From: Afipia sp.
Lineage (GTDB): Bacteria; Pseudomonadota; Alphaproteobacteria; Rhizobiales; Xanthobacteraceae
Direction: 5' to 3'
NCBI GenBank assembly: GCA_017474385.1
Contig: JAFVHU010000157.1
Coordinates: forward strand, 1-39,501
DNA length: 39,501 nucleotides
The notes beneath the pieces are model-generated. The model was not told the origin of the DNA and made no database searches. It saw only the letters and a program-made list of their open reading frames with translations. A program made the position numbers and the translations under genes. Below, piece by piece: positions 21,799 through 25,898 of this stretch (its first letter is position 1; every line of letters starts with the position of its first letter).

Positions 21799-22311
21799 AT
21801 GATCAAAACAGCCGCTACGGCCATTGAGCCCGCACGCGACAATGCCGCTGCACCGGTGCAGCCGCTCTATCTCGAAGCGCTTACGCTCGTTGAACGTCTG
21901 CATCGCCGTCTGCTCGACGTGATCAAGGACGAATTCGATCGCCGCGGCCGCGCCGACATCAATTCGGTGCAGGCTCTGCTGCTCTATAATATCGGCGACA
22001 AGGAATTGACCGCCGGTGAGCTGCGCACGCGCGGCTATTACCTCGGCTCCAACGTCTCGTACAATCTGAAGAAGCTTGTCGAGATGGGTTTCCTCGATCA
22101 CCAGCGTTCGCGCGTTGATCGCCGCTCGGTCCGCATTCGTCTGACCGCGCAGGGCCAGGAAATCCGCCACATCGTCGACGCGCTGTATCAGAAGCACGTC
22201 AAGACGGTGGAGCAGGTGGGCGGCATCTCGAACGCCGAGTTCGCGACGCTGAACAAGTCGCTGCATCGTCTCGAGCGCTTCTGGACCGATCAGATCCTGT
22301 ATCGGCTCTGA
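21799..22311 (+). CDS. ldtR: MarR-family transcriptional regulator LdtR
   Basis: Winged-helix regulator. In Liberibacter asiaticus and Sinorhizobium, LdtR controls an L,D-transpeptidase gene (ldtP) and cell-envelope stress tolerance. The 170-residue product carries the very conserved block LYLEALTLVERLHRRLLDVIK, then INSVQALLLYNIGDKELTAGELRTRGYYLGSNVSYNLKKLVE (recognition helix region) and the wing HQRSRVDRRSVRIRLT. The start has AGGGGAAG just upstream. It is located between the DUF6163 gene and glyA, its usual position, although here about 2.3 kb of extra sequence separates it from glyA. Confidence 0.92.
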   Translation: MIKTAATAIEPARDNAAAPVQPLYLEALTLVERLHRRLLDVIKDEFDRRGRADINSVQALLLYNIGDKELTAGELRTRGYYLGSNVSYNLKKLVEMGFLDHQRSRVDRRSVRIRLTAQGQEIRHIVDALYQKHVKTVEQVGGISNAEFATLNKSLHRLERFWTDQILYRL

Positions 22312-22416
22312 GAATTCGGGTCTCACACAATTCGGGTTAGCCGGCACAAGACCGGCGACCCGTGACCACTCTCGAAATTTCGCCGGTGCCCTCCGGCTGT
22401 TACCGAAGTGCGCACA

Positions 22417-22461
22417 AGACGCACGCGGAAGAATTCCGCACGAGTTTCCCCTGGTGTGGGA
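22417..22461. repeat. 45-bp direct repeat, copy 1
   Basis: Identical over all 45 bp to 23866-23910. It contains the hairpin GCGGAA-GAA-TTCCGC (22425-22439) and is followed 10 bp later by a terminator hairpin, an arrangement also present (with decay) after copy 2. It may be the 3' part of a small RNA gene, or the boundary of an inserted cassette. I also have a vague memory of similar stretches between genes in Bradyrhizobium. Confidence 0.85.
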
Positions 22462-22471
22462 TATGCGACTA

Positions 22472-22491
22472 GGCGCCTTCAGGCGCCTTTT
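22472..22491 (+). terminator. Intrinsic terminator after repeat copy 1
   Basis: GGCGCC-TTCA-GGCGCC followed by TTTT: stem of 6 GC pairs with a tetraloop. The equivalent after copy 2 (23945-23964) reads GGCGCC-TTCG-GGTACC-TTTT, with one mismatch and one wobble pair. It could terminate ldtR or a short RNA that covers the repeat. Confidence 0.7.
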
Positions 22492-23052
22492 CGCGTTTGG
22501 ACTACCAGTACCTTCCGGATGGCGCAGGCACCCTCCCGGCACAATCCCTCCATCCGCCCGGTCTCTTTCAAGCAGACGGCCCATAATGCCCCTGTGGGGA
22601 GGGTTCGCCGAAGGCGGACGAGCGTCAGTAATTGATGGATGATGATGGTTTGCGTGGTCATCATTGCGATGCAATGAGCCATGACTGTCGTGATGAGATT
22701 GGTGGTCATTGTAATGATATGTTGATTGTCAACATATTAGCCCATTCTCGCGGGGCAAATTTTCCCCAGGGCAGGACATTGTGTCCTCAACGTTTTTAGT
22801 CCCGCGTAGAAGTTGTCCACAGCGGGTCCACACATTTTTTCGGGATAAACGGGGACAACTCGGTCGTTGCCCCTAGGCGATTCGGTGAATCACTTATAAG
22901 GCGGAGTCGGACGGTGCTTCCAAGGGCACCGCCCGACGCTTGGAAAGAGAGTCACGCAGAATCTCCCTCCGAACACGGTGGTTCTCGCTCTCCCCACGCA
23001 CGTTTGTCAATCACTCGCGCGATGTCGCTTCGCGCCACGGGAGACTGTTGCC
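22492..23052. other. Non-coding accessory region with palindromes and GANTC sites
   Basis: No convincing gene over about 560 bp; short open frames here have no ribosome site and unlikely composition. It holds TCATTGC-GAT-GCAATGA (22661-22677), ATATGTTGA-TTG-TCAACATAT (22717-22737), a GTCCACA direct repeat with 11-bp period (22815-22821, 22826-22832) inside AGTTGTCC/GGACAACT (22811-22818, 22853-22860), and five GANTC sites between 22879 and 22963. The right part must contain the promoter of the 40-residue peptide gene. Confidence 0.6.
22717..22737. promoter_or_regulatory. Perfect 21-bp palindrome, candidate operator
   Basis: ATATGTTGA-TTG-TCAACATAT: 9-bp perfect arms and a 3-bp centre in an AT-rich setting. 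The minus-strand reading contains TTGACA. The binding protein is unknown; LdtR, encoded 0.4 kb upstream, is a possible but unsupported candidate. Confidence 0.5.
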
Positions 23053-23175
23053 ATGTCAGACAAGTTATCGTTGAGCCTTTGGGGGGCCAGCATCAGCGCG
23101 GAAGGGATCGTCGCAATCGCTGCAGCCGTTATCATCGTGGTGCTCTTGGCCGTCGTCACGAAACGCCGAGCGTGA
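23053..23175 (+). CDS. 40-residue single-span membrane peptide
   Basis: Short gene starting at ATG 23053, with GGGAG at 23039-23043 (9-bp spacing) as ribosome site. Residues 1-16 are polar to amphipathic (MSDKLSLSLWGASISA), residues 17-35 form one hydrophobic span (GIVAIAAAVIIVVLLAVVT), and the tail is basic (KRRA). The stop TGA ends at 23175 and the stop of the opposite gene starts at 23176, so the two abut with no spacer. It resembles small membrane peptides of unknown function and, in general shape, type I toxin or holin-like peptides, but nothing identifies it further. It is inside the interval bounded by the 45-bp repeats. Confidence 0.6.
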   Translation: MSDKLSLSLWGASISAEGIVAIAAAVIIVVLLAVVTKRRA

Positions 23176-23835
23176 CTATGCTGCCGGCAGTCGAACCTTT
23201 GCAATGCGCTCCAAGTCGTCGATTGCTTCGGCTAATTCGCGTGCGATGCGGTTTAAATTATCGACCTTGGCCTGAGTTTCTTTGGTCAATCCATTTCGGT
23301 CTGCGTTGTTTCGCATCGTCCTTACTTGAAGATTGGGGCCGATGGAAAAGCCATACTGCTCAGCGTTGGCCAATTCTGCGGAAAGCCTCTTTACCACCGC
23401 CAATCGCTTGTTGAGCTTCCTGTCCACAAACTCGTAGCGCGCCCCGATCCAATCGTCCGAAATATCTTCCATCGAAGATGTTTGCGTGACGTGCCAGTTC
23501 TGAGCAAAATTGTGATTTTTGAGAAAATCAATATCAGCGCGTCCGAAAAGTTTACGAAAATCTCCGATGAGCTGGATGTCGTGAGCGTTTGGGGGGCGGG
23601 CTTTCCAGCCGCCGTAAATAAGCATCGCGAGGCCAATTACCAAAAAAGTCCAGCCGACCCACTGCGCGGGCTCTTCCCAGCGCAGCTGAGTGTAGGCCAT
23701 GACGAATTTGTCAATCCAACCCGTCAACACACCTACGCCGGCGACCGCGATCACCGCACCGGTGCGATTCCAGATGTTGCCCACCAGAATTCGAACTACT
23801 TCCAAACCCTTATTCGTCCAAAATTCTTTGTCCAT
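23176..23835 (-). CDS. Unrecognised membrane protein with soluble helical C-terminus
   Basis: 219 residues; I recognise no family. Two hydrophobic segments, about 25-42 (TGAVIAVAGVGVLTGWI) and 59-76 (QWVGWTFLVIGLAMLIYGG), are followed by a soluble part: DIQLIGDFRKLFGRADIDFLKNHNF (about 85-110), then a charged, probably coiled-coil region with RLSAELANAEQYG and, near the end, DNLNRIARELAEAIDDLERIAKVR. A GGGGGA lies shortly before the ATG on the minus strand. Composition stands out: 50 G+C of 120 by hand count over 23461-23580 (42%), against a GC-rich background, suggesting horizontal acquisition. Its promoter must lie in or next to repeat copy 2, and its stop abuts the 40-residue peptide gene. 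A membrane anchor plus cytosolic helical domain would fit a sensor or effector; this is speculation. Confidence 0.75.
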   Translation of the reverse strand: MDKEFWTNKGLEVVRILVGNIWNRTGAVIAVAGVGVLTGWIDKFVMAYTQLRWEEPAQWVGWTFLVIGLAMLIYGGWKARPPNAHDIQLIGDFRKLFGRADIDFLKNHNFAQNWHVTQTSSMEDISDDWIGARYEFVDRKLNKRLAVVKRLSAELANAEQYGFSIGPNLQVRTMRNNADRNGLTKETQAKVDNLNRIARELAEAIDDLERIAKVRLPAA

Positions 23836-23865
23836 GAAATCCCCCGTTCGGAGGATACATGAAAC

Positions 23866-23910
23866 AGACGCACGCGGAAGAATTCCGCACGAGTTTCCCC
23901 TGGTGTGGGA
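23866..23910. repeat. 45-bp direct repeat, copy 2
   Basis: Perfect copy of 22417-22461. After it come 34 bp and then a decayed version of the terminator hairpin (23945-23964), with the flanking TTTTCGCGTTT also shared. The two copies bracket 1.4 kb containing the 40-residue and 219-residue protein genes. Confidence 0.85.
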
Positions 23911-23973
23911 CGAAAACGCCGAACGTCGACGTGACGAAAGCCTGGGCGCCTTCGGGTACCTTTTCGCGTTTTG

Positions 23974-24089
23974 GATTCAGAGAATCGACTCGTAAACGAG
24001 TCCTGAATCTCTGGCATCGAGAGCCAAAAATATCGTCCGAGACTCTTGCCCGGACTCTTTCCATCATCCTCTCATCATGAGGCCGATTC
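23974..24089. other. Cluster of eight GANTC (CcrM) sites with a strong hairpin
   Basis: GANTC occurs at 23974, 23982, 23987, 23998, 24005, 24041, 24053 and 24085, eight times in 116 bp where about one per 256 bp is expected by chance. Five of them lie in a 36-bp nested palindrome: GATTCAG (23974-23980) and GACTCG (23987-23992) pair with CGAGTC (23997-24002) and CTGAATC (24003-24009). CcrM methylates GANTC in alphaproteobacteria and times gene expression and replication. Confidence 0.7.
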
Positions 24090-24184
24090 TCAAATTCGCC
24101 GGCGACCGCTTGCAGGTCGCGCTGATGCTCGTGCTGCTGGCCGCGTGCTCGCTGAACGTGATGTTTCTCTGCGCGCGGCTGTAG
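24077..24184 (+). CDS. Possible 35-residue hydrophobic peptide
   Basis: ATG 24077 to TAG 24184 encodes 35 residues: a short basic start (MRPILKFAGDRLQ), a hydrophobic span (VALMLVLLAACSLNVMFLCA) and RL. Three of the last residues are typical membrane-peptide ends, and codon use is GC-rich like the host. No clear ribosome site lies upstream, and the LAAC could be a chance lipobox. It sits at the end of the GANTC cluster and 412 bp before glyA. Real but weakly supported. Confidence 0.35.
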   Translation: MRPILKFAGDRLQVALMLVLLAACSLNVMFLCARL

Positions 24185-24596
24185 GCCGACCCGGCCGGGG
24201 ACCAGTTCCGAAAACCGGCTTGCGCTTTTGCGCTCTCCTAAGGCGGGTAAATTGCCCAACAGCGGCGATCCGGAACCCGGAATGTGGGCAAAAACGACGG
24301 CTGCGGGAGGCCGGATCGGGCTGAAACCGCCAAAACAGCCATTTCGGAGCATTTGGCACTGGGCCGGTGGTATGCAGCCCACAGGGCCGGCCCCAGACGG
24401 TCATGTCCCGCATAAATAGCGGCCCACGGGCTTGGAACTTGGCCGCCCCCGCCAGATATGGTATCTCGCGCCTGCCGCCCTTAGATGACACCGGAGCAGT
24501 TTTTGGGAAGCCCGAACCGGGTTTTCGTCCGAAAATGCTCCCAATCAGACCGCCCGTAGCCGACCTTGAAAGCTGCGGCGGTGGAGACATTCTGCA
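24185..24596. other. Long leader region upstream of glyA
   Basis: 412 bp without a convincing gene. It is GC-rich with several short complementary stretches (for example GGGCCGG/CCGGCCC around 24361-24396) and must carry the glyA promoter and 5' leader. GGTGGAG at about 24579-24585 is the likely glyA ribosome site. I looked for known riboswitch cores (SAM, SAH, glycine, THF types) and recognised none, but a structure search was not possible. Confidence 0.4.
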
Positions 24597-25898
24597 ATGA
24601 GCTCATCTGCCAAGACCTCTTCCGCTCCCGACTCGTTTTTCACGGCCTCGCTTGCGCAGGCCGATCCTGAGATCGCGAATGCGATCAAGGGTGAACTCGG
24701 TCGTCAGCAGCATGAGATCGAGCTGATCGCATCCGAGAACATCGTCAGCCGCGCCGTACTCGAGGCACAGGGCTCGGTGATGACCAACAAATATGCGGAA
24801 GGCTATCCGGGCGCGCGTTACTACGGCGGCTGCGAGTTCGTCGATGTCGCCGAGACGCTGGCCATCGAGCGCGCCAAGAAACTGTTCGGCGCGAACTTCG
24901 CCAATGTGCAGCCGAACTCCGGCAGCCAGATGAACCAGGCGGCTTTCCTGGCTCTGTTGCAGCCGGGCGATACGTTCATGGGTCTCGATCTTGCCGCGGG
25001 CGGACATCTGACGCACGGCGCGCCGGTCAACATGTCCGGCAAGTGGTTCAAGCCGGTGCACTACACCGTGCGCCGCGAAGACCAGATCATCAATATGGAT
25101 GCTGTGGCGAAGCAGGCGGAAGAGATCAAGCCGAAGCTGATCATTGCCGGCGGCTCGGCTTATTCGCGCGCCTGGGACTTCAAGCGCTTCCGCGAAATCG
25201 CCGACAGCGTCGGCGCGTATCTGCTGGTCGACATGGCGCACTTCGCCGGTCTCGTCGCGGGCGGCGTCCATGCGTCACCGGTGCCGTATGCGCACGTCAC
25301 CACGACGACGACGCACAAGTCGCTGCGCGGTCCGCGCGGTGGTTTGATCCTCAGCAACGACGAGGTGATCGCGAAGAAGCTGAACTCTGCGATCTTCCCC
25401 GGCCTGCAGGGCGGGCCGCTGATGCATGTGATCGCGGCCAAGGCCGTCGCGTTCAAGGAAGCGTTGCAGCCGGACTTCAAGATCTACGCCAAGAACGTGG
25501 TCGAGAATGCCAAGGCGCTCGCAGAAACGCTGCGCTCCAACGGTTTCGAAATTGTGTCCGGCGGCACCGACAATCACCTGATGCTGGTCGACCTGCGGCC
25601 GAAGGGTCTCAAGGGCAACGTGTCGGAGAAGGCGCTGGTCCGCGCCGGTCTGACCTGCAACAAGAACGGCATCCCGTTCGACCCCGAAAAGCCGTTCGTC
25701 ACCTCTGGCCTGCGCCTCGGCACCCCGGCTGCGACCACGCGCGGTTTCGGCGTCGCCGAGTTCAAGCAGGTCGGCGCGCTGATTTCAGAAGTGCTCAACG
25801 CCGTCGCCCAGTCGGGCGAAGGTTCGGCGCCTCTGGTTGAAGCGTCGGTCAAGGAGAAGGTGAAGGAACTCACCAGCCGTTTCCCGATCTACCAGTAA
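24597..25898 (+). CDS. glyA: Serine hydroxymethyltransferase
   Basis: PLP enzyme that converts serine and tetrahydrofolate to glycine and 5,10-methylene-THF, the main source of one-carbon units. The 433-residue product has [10 protein letters not shown] (42-51), [20 protein letters not shown], the PLP lysine K241 in [15 protein letters not shown], and the C-terminal [16 protein letters not shown]. Length is standard. Start ATG 24597 is preceded by a purine-rich GGTGGAG. It begins the string glyA-nrdR-ribD-ribE; nrdR starts only 10 bp after its stop. Confidence 0.97.

Follow-up and report, generated by a model that had tools for sequence, protein, structure and literature searches.

A 1,449-bp unit is found between ldtR and glyA in an Afipia sp. 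(GenBank assembly GCA_017474385.1, contig JAFVHU010000157.1; "the window" means the whole stretch of 39,501 nucleotides (nt) that was analyzed). With a probability of roughly two in three, this unit is a minimal defense cassette, composed of an anchor and a membrane effector, that was left by or mobilized with an integrative element. The anchor would pair a tiny membrane peptide with a structured leader RNA. The unit holds a 40-residue open reading frame (ORF) on the forward strand and a 219-residue ORF (ORF219) on the reverse strand, and these abut stop to stop without a spacer, as an original prediction from the sequence alone had stated. The features of the region are as follows, with the basis of each in parentheses.

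21799..22311, forward strand: ldtR, the left chromosomal neighbor (NCBIfam NF047395, TransRegLtdR, 5.5e-86; matches in 55 of 61 genomes, its own included).
22375..22497, forward strand: small-RNA-like gene, the intact left side, presumably restored by the insertion (fold, alignment, genome matches).
22417..22461, forward strand: left repeat copy, an attL-like core (identical to 23866..23910).
22469..22498, forward strand: intact terminator-like hairpin of the small-RNA-like gene (same hairpin in aligned relatives).
22773..22787, no strand assigned: palindrome AGGACATTGTGTCCT, operator-like or a weak terminator, 5' of the leader (same type in G1160 and G1154).
22830..22850, forward strand: promoter-like segment CATTTTTTCGGGATAAAC (upstream regions compared side by side; TATAAT in several relatives).
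22906..23039, forward strand: structured leader RNA (covariance model R1, covariation, homologues at 11 other loci).
23053..23175, forward strand: 40-residue single-span MSDKL peptide (nine-member alignment, codon-position differences, hydropathy).
23176..23835, reverse strand: ORF219, with two hydrophobic segments and a domain that we call D, convergent to the peptide gene (homologues, hydropathy, alignments).
23866..23910, forward strand: right repeat copy, an attR-like core (identical to 22417..22461).
23942..23971, forward strand: decayed terminator of a displaced 3' fragment (87% identical to 22469..22498, then the 3' flank common to relatives).
24077..24184, forward strand: 35-residue ORF in the common 3' flank, chromosomal and outside the cassette (tblastn matches at 20 of 29 relatives' loci; no Pfam or NCBIfam match).
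24597..25898, forward strand: glyA, the right chromosomal neighbor (tblastn matches at 24 of 29 relatives' loci; named from translation and synteny).

The leader RNA is approximately 134 nt long. Genome G212 carries the same convergent pair of genes as the window (64% and 46% identical), and DNA similarity between the two reaches about 150 nt 5' of the peptide gene (75% over 259 nt, 1.6e-33). A motif derived from this upstream stretch matched three IMG/VR records, and an MSDKL-type peptide follows the leader in all three. Searches with anchor DNA gave matches in 8 of 248 family genomes, its own included, with leaders in G212, G199 and G231 and a peptide in G278; matches of 22 to 39 nt in G019, G098 and G178 were taken as chance and dropped. 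With the covariance model R1, 6 of 107 genomes in the genus of G212 proved to have the leader, five of them new; the model scores 112 bits in the window, which is among its seven building sequences. Opposite-strand matches of 19 to 25 bits correspond to the first hairpin read backwards and were dropped. In all, 12 leader loci are available, including the window, and G278 is a thirteenth anchor locus with only the peptide. Leader and peptide were not found in plasmids, and the L099 anchor stretch was not found in phages.

The predicted leader structure pairs 96.1% of alignment cells, compared with 37% to 50% in slid controls. Double changes occur at 5 pairs (8 cells), compared with 2.2 (2.7) in shuffles, and the fold has z-scores of -2.0 in G212, -2.7 in G199, -6.4 in G231 and -3.7 in the third element. 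The peptide that follows is of the MSDKL type at 9 of the 13 anchor loci. Differences at the three codon positions (221, 162 and 403 among 21 pairs of seven sequences) suggest that the MSDKL ORF is coding. Its hydropathy peaks at 3.09. At other loci the same leader precedes unrelated tiny ORFs, one type at G231 and G414 and another at G199 and G1174. The tiny ORFs just after the leader in L115 (G1174) and L118 (G199) end in FLxQxGxxxLxILHK, and those in L114 (G414) and L119 (G231) contain LTITEE.

The palindrome, in the form AGGACATT[GC]TGTCCT, is located 5' of the leader in the window, G1160 and G1154, and occurs once in its own genome. Because a terminator scan lists it as a terminator-like stem, the label of operator is only a guess, and among the papers listed for an operator palindrome none was relevant by title. 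A simple scan found no sigma-70 promoter. At 22813-22821 the window has TTGTCCACA/TTATCCACA-like boxes, which also occur 5' of several other leaders and which we take to resemble DnaA boxes. A plasmid-like replicon, as suggested by the upstream TTGTCCACA boxes, was considered and rejected: only ORF219 and the peptide look coding, and similar boxes are found 5' of other leaders.

The three IMG/VR records probably represent mobile elements of Bradyrhizobium-like hosts. On the left they are approximately 95% to 97% identical if insertions (about 150 and 630 nt) are disregarded, and on the right 92% to 97%. Left identity ends somewhere from 9 nt 5' to 13 nt 3' of the stop codon of the peptide gene, and by this comparison the swap border is placed approximately at the end of that gene. 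The first of the unrelated, restriction-type modules that lie between these flanks encodes a D12 methylase (6.1e-48) and DndB-like proteins. The second encodes an MmeI-type methylase (5.7e-120), a helicase (DEAD just under the cut-off) and a P-loop ATPase, the last being our reading of a sequence with no Pfam match. The third encodes a type III methylase (1.7e-39) and Res (2.3e-10). Conserved flanks around unrelated defense cargo, as in a hotspot, are found in these three elements and are not shown for the window. The right ends of L104 and L105 carry an integrase with Arm-DNA-bind_3 and Phage_integrase domains, and L106 shares the first 60 residues with L105.

Such an arrangement suggests that these elements have a slot for exchangeable defense genes, with the anchor at its left edge. 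As described by Rousset et al. (2022; PMC9122126), P2/P4 elements have defense hotspots of approximately 1 to 5 kb between two conserved genes. These are likewise small slots with high turnover of defense genes, bounded by conserved genes of the mobile element. In contrast, the left boundary here comprises a leader RNA and a tiny membrane ORF and is also found outside one element family, and the hosts are apparently Bradyrhizobium-like.

Several other anchor loci, which are chromosomal, also contain defense genes. The G1166 locus encodes GmrSD, an HsdS-type fragment and ZorA/ZorB-like proteins, the G1154 locus encodes GmrSD, Vsr and a large helicase matching 9tu7, and the G1174 locus encodes McrB; a Pfam scan of G278 revealed DUF4238 and an integrase. 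PADLOC searches (E-values of at most 1e-8, ORFs of at least 200 residues) matched 145 models at nine anchor loci (79 ORFs) and 6 models in nine displaced stretches of the same contigs about 100 kb away (95 ORFs), with 164,975 bases in each set; because PADLOC models are redundant, 145 is not a count of genes, and the matches are those of the set, not assigned to individual loci or ORFs. The anchor set includes G278, which has only the peptide, and G212, which was first found through ORF219, and the count takes in genes 5' as well as 3' of the leader. Among the matches listed (25 of the 145 models) are Zorya, the Druantia protein DruE, IetA, a type II methylase, and PDC-M55C/HEC, of which the last are the models matched by GmrSD of G212. 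The six models in the control set were taken for housekeeping look-alikes. By these matches, the anchor loci are rich in predicted defense genes.

ORF219 begins with hydrophobic segments (19-residue hydropathy peaks starting at residues 28 and 59), followed by the soluble domain D at approximately residues 81 to 219. Both proteins of the cassette had been called unrecognized in the original prediction, and searches with profile models agree: ORF219 has no match above cut-off (DUF202 of Pfam is at 19.7 bits, under its cut-off of 23.4), and the peptide matches no Pfam, NCBIfam or PADLOC family. Homologues of ORF219 are rare, being present in four other genomes of 391 and in three others of 385. 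A search of 397 genomes found G212 again and G576, which has the TIR-like part only. Seven plasmid records matched, three of them at E-values of about 0.05 and one, a Vibrio plasmid, at 0.7; the Vibrio match and G576 were left out of the homologue counts. No homologue was found in phages, and searches of a species-genome collection with peptide patterns from ORF219 gave no result.

Five proteins (window, G212, G304, G366 and G807) share the plan of two membrane spans followed by D. In G284 and three plasmid proteins, D follows an N-terminal region with weak CAP12-TIR matches (all four that were inspected). In the 298-residue protein of G1040 (L084:3490-4386, reverse strand) it follows an N terminus that has no Pfam match and is possibly nuclease-like, and in G977 it is nearly alone. 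A sequence search of the PDB with one TIR-like protein carrying D gave no result. Domain D, which is combined with either membrane spans or TIR-like domains depending on the protein, is a candidate for a new effector-associated domain. Among the four outside homologues with the two-span plan, three are adjoined by a defense-type gene, namely GmrSD in G212 (5.2e-32), Abi_alpha in G366 (4.8e-17) and HEPN_LA2681 in G304 (1.5e-65).

The reading that we prefer is that ORF219 is a membrane-disrupting effector triggered by infection. Domain D would sense infection or join subunits, and the two-span part would damage or depolarize the inner membrane, leading to an abortive-infection style of defense. 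Cyclic oligonucleotide-based antiphage signaling systems (CBASS) and systems of the Pycsar (pyrimidine cyclase system for antiphage resistance) type have transmembrane or TIR effectors, and the proteins described here are similar in that two membrane spans or a TIR-like domain are joined to a common domain. They differ in that ORF219 has no PADLOC match, no other gene of the cassette could encode a cyclase, and searches with domain D gave nothing above the Pfam cut-off and nothing significant in the PDB by sequence.

The peptide gene and its convergent gene are separated by 0 nt in the window, 14 nt in G212 and 23 nt in the third element. (An opposite frame of 160 residues, 70 nt from the G1154 peptide, was taken as spurious.) With no room for a terminator, the leader-peptide transcript would enter the 3' end of the cargo gene, so perhaps it restrains the cargo as an antisense RNA. 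Alternately, the peptide may act as a small membrane toxin through which the cassette is retained.

A number of observations weigh against a defense cassette of this kind. The defense genes of G1154 are located 5' of the leader and not after the peptide, and Pfam scans of selected ORFs found no defense gene at G231, G414 or G1160. The PADLOC control consists of displaced stretches and not of other mobile elements, so the difference between 145 and 6 models does not imply an excess over mobile elements in general. ORF219 itself matched no PADLOC family at E-values up to 1, the CAP12-TIR matches of the related proteins (0.066 to 0.31) are all below the Pfam cut-off, and G807, the fourth outside homologue, has no obvious defense neighbor by eye. 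Tight convergence is found at only three of the nine peptide loci. Further pair types in the leader alignment (16) are no better than in shuffles (16.5), and the fold of the window leader alone is unremarkable (z -1.2). As for mobility, four integrases from anchor elements matched nothing significantly anywhere in the window, the cassette included, and searches of viral contigs, plasmids and phages yielded no copy of the 45-bp core.

A broader proposal, which we hold tentatively and at somewhat below even odds, is that these loci represent a previously undescribed format of mobile defense cassette. It would have a constant anchor (an operator palindrome, a covarying leader RNA and one of three unrelated types of tiny peptide), the end of which would be the junction for the exchange of whole defense systems. 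The anchor would control the genes brought in by such an exchange through convergent transcription or peptide signaling. The window would be the smallest form, with a new membrane effector, and domain D would be a signaling adaptor common to TIR-like and other effectors. Defense hotspots are usually recognized by genes that happen to flank them. If true, new defense systems of Bradyrhizobium, Afipia and related bacteria could be searched for by a tag, the constant anchor of leader RNA and tiny peptide at the swap junction. A regulatory question would also become open to experiment, namely how one promoter and RNA element could serve many unrelated, potentially toxic cargo genes. A small literature search found no description of a leader-peptide anchor. 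Small ORFs and repetitive extragenic palindromic (REP) elements of B. japonicum are treated in PMC5082802, where the string MSDK is absent from the main text.

It is also possible, although we think it rather unlikely, that the unit is an ordinary remnant of an integrative element in which the anchor is an addiction unit resembling a type I toxin-antitoxin system and ORF219 is a passenger, for example one that acts in envelope stress or bacteriocin immunity. TisB, Hok and other type I toxins are short hydrophobic peptides with a structured leader. The anchor is similar in combining a short hydrophobic coding ORF with a structured 5' leader: the tiny peptides are hydrophobic and have 38 to 42 residues, and a hairpin is located directly 5' of the peptide start codon. 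Moreover, the leader precedes two other types of tiny ORF, which would fit the RNA as the constant part. In contrast to TisB and Hok, the peptide is without a match in the family databases and has defense cargo alongside, and a toxin role would be putative. A passenger role is suggested by weak matches of ORF219 to PspB (E-value 0.035) and to a bacteriocin-immunity PHROG (0.32). However, the PspB score of 14.4 bits is far under the cut-off of 51.7, and the PHROG match is not significant. The abundance of defense-model matches at anchor loci relative to the control, and the defense-type neighbors of three of the four outside relatives of ORF219, also argue against an addiction unit with a passenger and for the preferred cassette of anchor and effector.

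By comparison with relatives, the cassette is an insertion in a small-RNA-like gene. The two 45-bp repeats are identical, as predicted, and are the only matches to region 22400-22500 in its own genome. Each is followed by a similar 30-nt hairpin stretch, and the degraded state of the right one had also been anticipated correctly. The small-RNA-like gene has a stable predicted fold (z -5.0; none of 200 shuffles was as good). An alignment of 10 sequences has 38 consensus pairs, of which 4 show double changes, and the gene is matched in 18 of 391 family genomes (its own included), in 3 of 47 genera. The left copy of the repeat is preceded by the 5' part of this gene and followed by the intact hairpin. 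The right copy has no such 5' part; similarity there starts with the core and continues through the decayed terminator into the 3' flank of relatives.

Relatives' loci were fetched by using LdtR (n = 29), and 24 of these extend to glyA. ORF219 and the peptide are absent from all 29 by tblastn, and neither the cassette nor a second core is found in any of the 24 relatives with the ldtR-glyA interval covered. A single core match is present in 14 of these 24 (partial in L009, 76% identical in L019), and the other 10 have no core. The distance from core to 3' flank is at most about 65 nt in 7 of the 14, about 125 to 140 nt, with many hairpins, in 4, and about 550 to 730 nt in 3 (L009, L010 and L019). 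In L006, L008, L012 and L014, a stretch rich in hairpins, with GAGCGCGATC...GATCGCGCTC and another palindrome, lies between core and terminator, inside the small-RNA-like gene, and looks like a palindromic repeat element. L010 (G004) has an unrelated membrane-protein ORF, presumably DUF305-like, at approximately 197-790 of the interval, between the small-RNA terminator and the 3' flank and with no second repeat; the same spot carries other DNA as well.

Because the left gene is intact, the right copy is a decayed 3' fragment, and relatives lack the cassette, the arrangement bears the signature of a site-specific insertion, with the repeat as part of a conserved small-RNA-like gene. The original prediction, an insertion that has duplicated ends and lies perhaps at the 3' end of a small RNA gene, is supported. 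In the proposed mechanism, the 3' half of the small-RNA gene would have arrived on a circular element, and recombination between this element and the resident gene would have taken place within the 45-bp core. The left end would then comprise the resident 5' part and the incoming 3' part and terminator, and the right end would be the displaced 3' fragment, now decaying. The recombinase was presumably lost or acted in trans. No recombinase had been expected in the cassette and none was found: ORF219 and the peptide have no integrase-type Pfam match in a scan that covered neither of two overlapping frames of 166 and 178 residues.

Islands in tRNA genes restore their target and leave a displaced fragment that marks the other end (PMC4383910). 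Islands of tRNA and tmRNA genes in the Islander database, as that article describes them, have the same split RNA gene, restored at one end and with a fragment at the other. In the window too, the repeats belong to the target gene, which is restored at one end and fragmentary at the other, and relatives have the empty site. The window differs in that the target is a small-RNA-like gene of limited distribution, and in that the unit is only about 1.4 kb, with no integrase found. A tRNA gene as the integration site was ruled out, since the window has none, and the insertion points to a small-RNA-like gene in its place. No Rfam family reached its gathering score in the window, leader and small-RNA-like gene included; two weak sub-threshold matches are located within 22200-24200 (E-values of 1.9 and 2.2). 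A transposon or miniature inverted-repeat transposable element (MITE) was ruled out by the lack of terminal inverted repeats (no pair of at least 12 nt at the cassette ends).

Duplication, or homologous recombination between two copies of the small-RNA gene, could produce the repeats with no site-specific recombinase, and the failure to find a recombinase in the cassette or a free attP would fit such an origin. We consider it improbable: at the right copy the 5' gene part is missing and similarity runs from core through terminator, as integration in the 3' part of the gene predicts, no further copy occurs in its own genome, and none of the 24 relatives has two copies.

Whether the peptide and ORF219 form a functional pair was evaluated by tblastn with the five two-span proteins against 12 anchor-locus stretches. 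Genes of this type are present at two of the nine MSDKL-peptide loci, the window and G212, and absent from the 15- to 20-kb stretches of the other seven; of the 12 stretches, the 11 other than that of G212 have none. Thus, by comparison, the anchor is conserved apart from its cargo. Conversely, in the stretches scanned, the peptide is found near one of the four outside homologues, that of G212. The suggestion of a new two-gene module holds in that the convergent pair recurs in G212, and fails in that the association is not exclusive; several other peptide loci carry defense genes instead. An obligate two-gene system, although consistent with the shared arrangement in G212, is already weakened and very improbable, given the seven MSDKL loci with no two-span gene and the lack of a peptide match near the G304, G366 and G807 homologues (at G304 the sequence on that side of the gene is just 280 nt long). 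Around the G212 module, the only direct repeats are of 18 and 16 nt.

Several minor observations concern the surroundings of the cassette. ldtR and glyA were correctly named as its neighbors. The simple terminator scan listed neither of the two hairpins that follow the repeats. A G+C content of about 42% for part of the membrane-protein gene was not reproduced; in 200-nt windows the fraction is 0.475 to 0.615 in the cassette, compared with approximately 0.58 to 0.65 in ldtR and from 24000 on. Elsewhere, the leader or peptide is found near the same putative pair of glyoxalase and glutathione S-transferase (GST) genes in L062 (G212), L116 (G1160), L118 (G199) and L120 (G278), and this locus is probably a chromosomal insertion hotspot.

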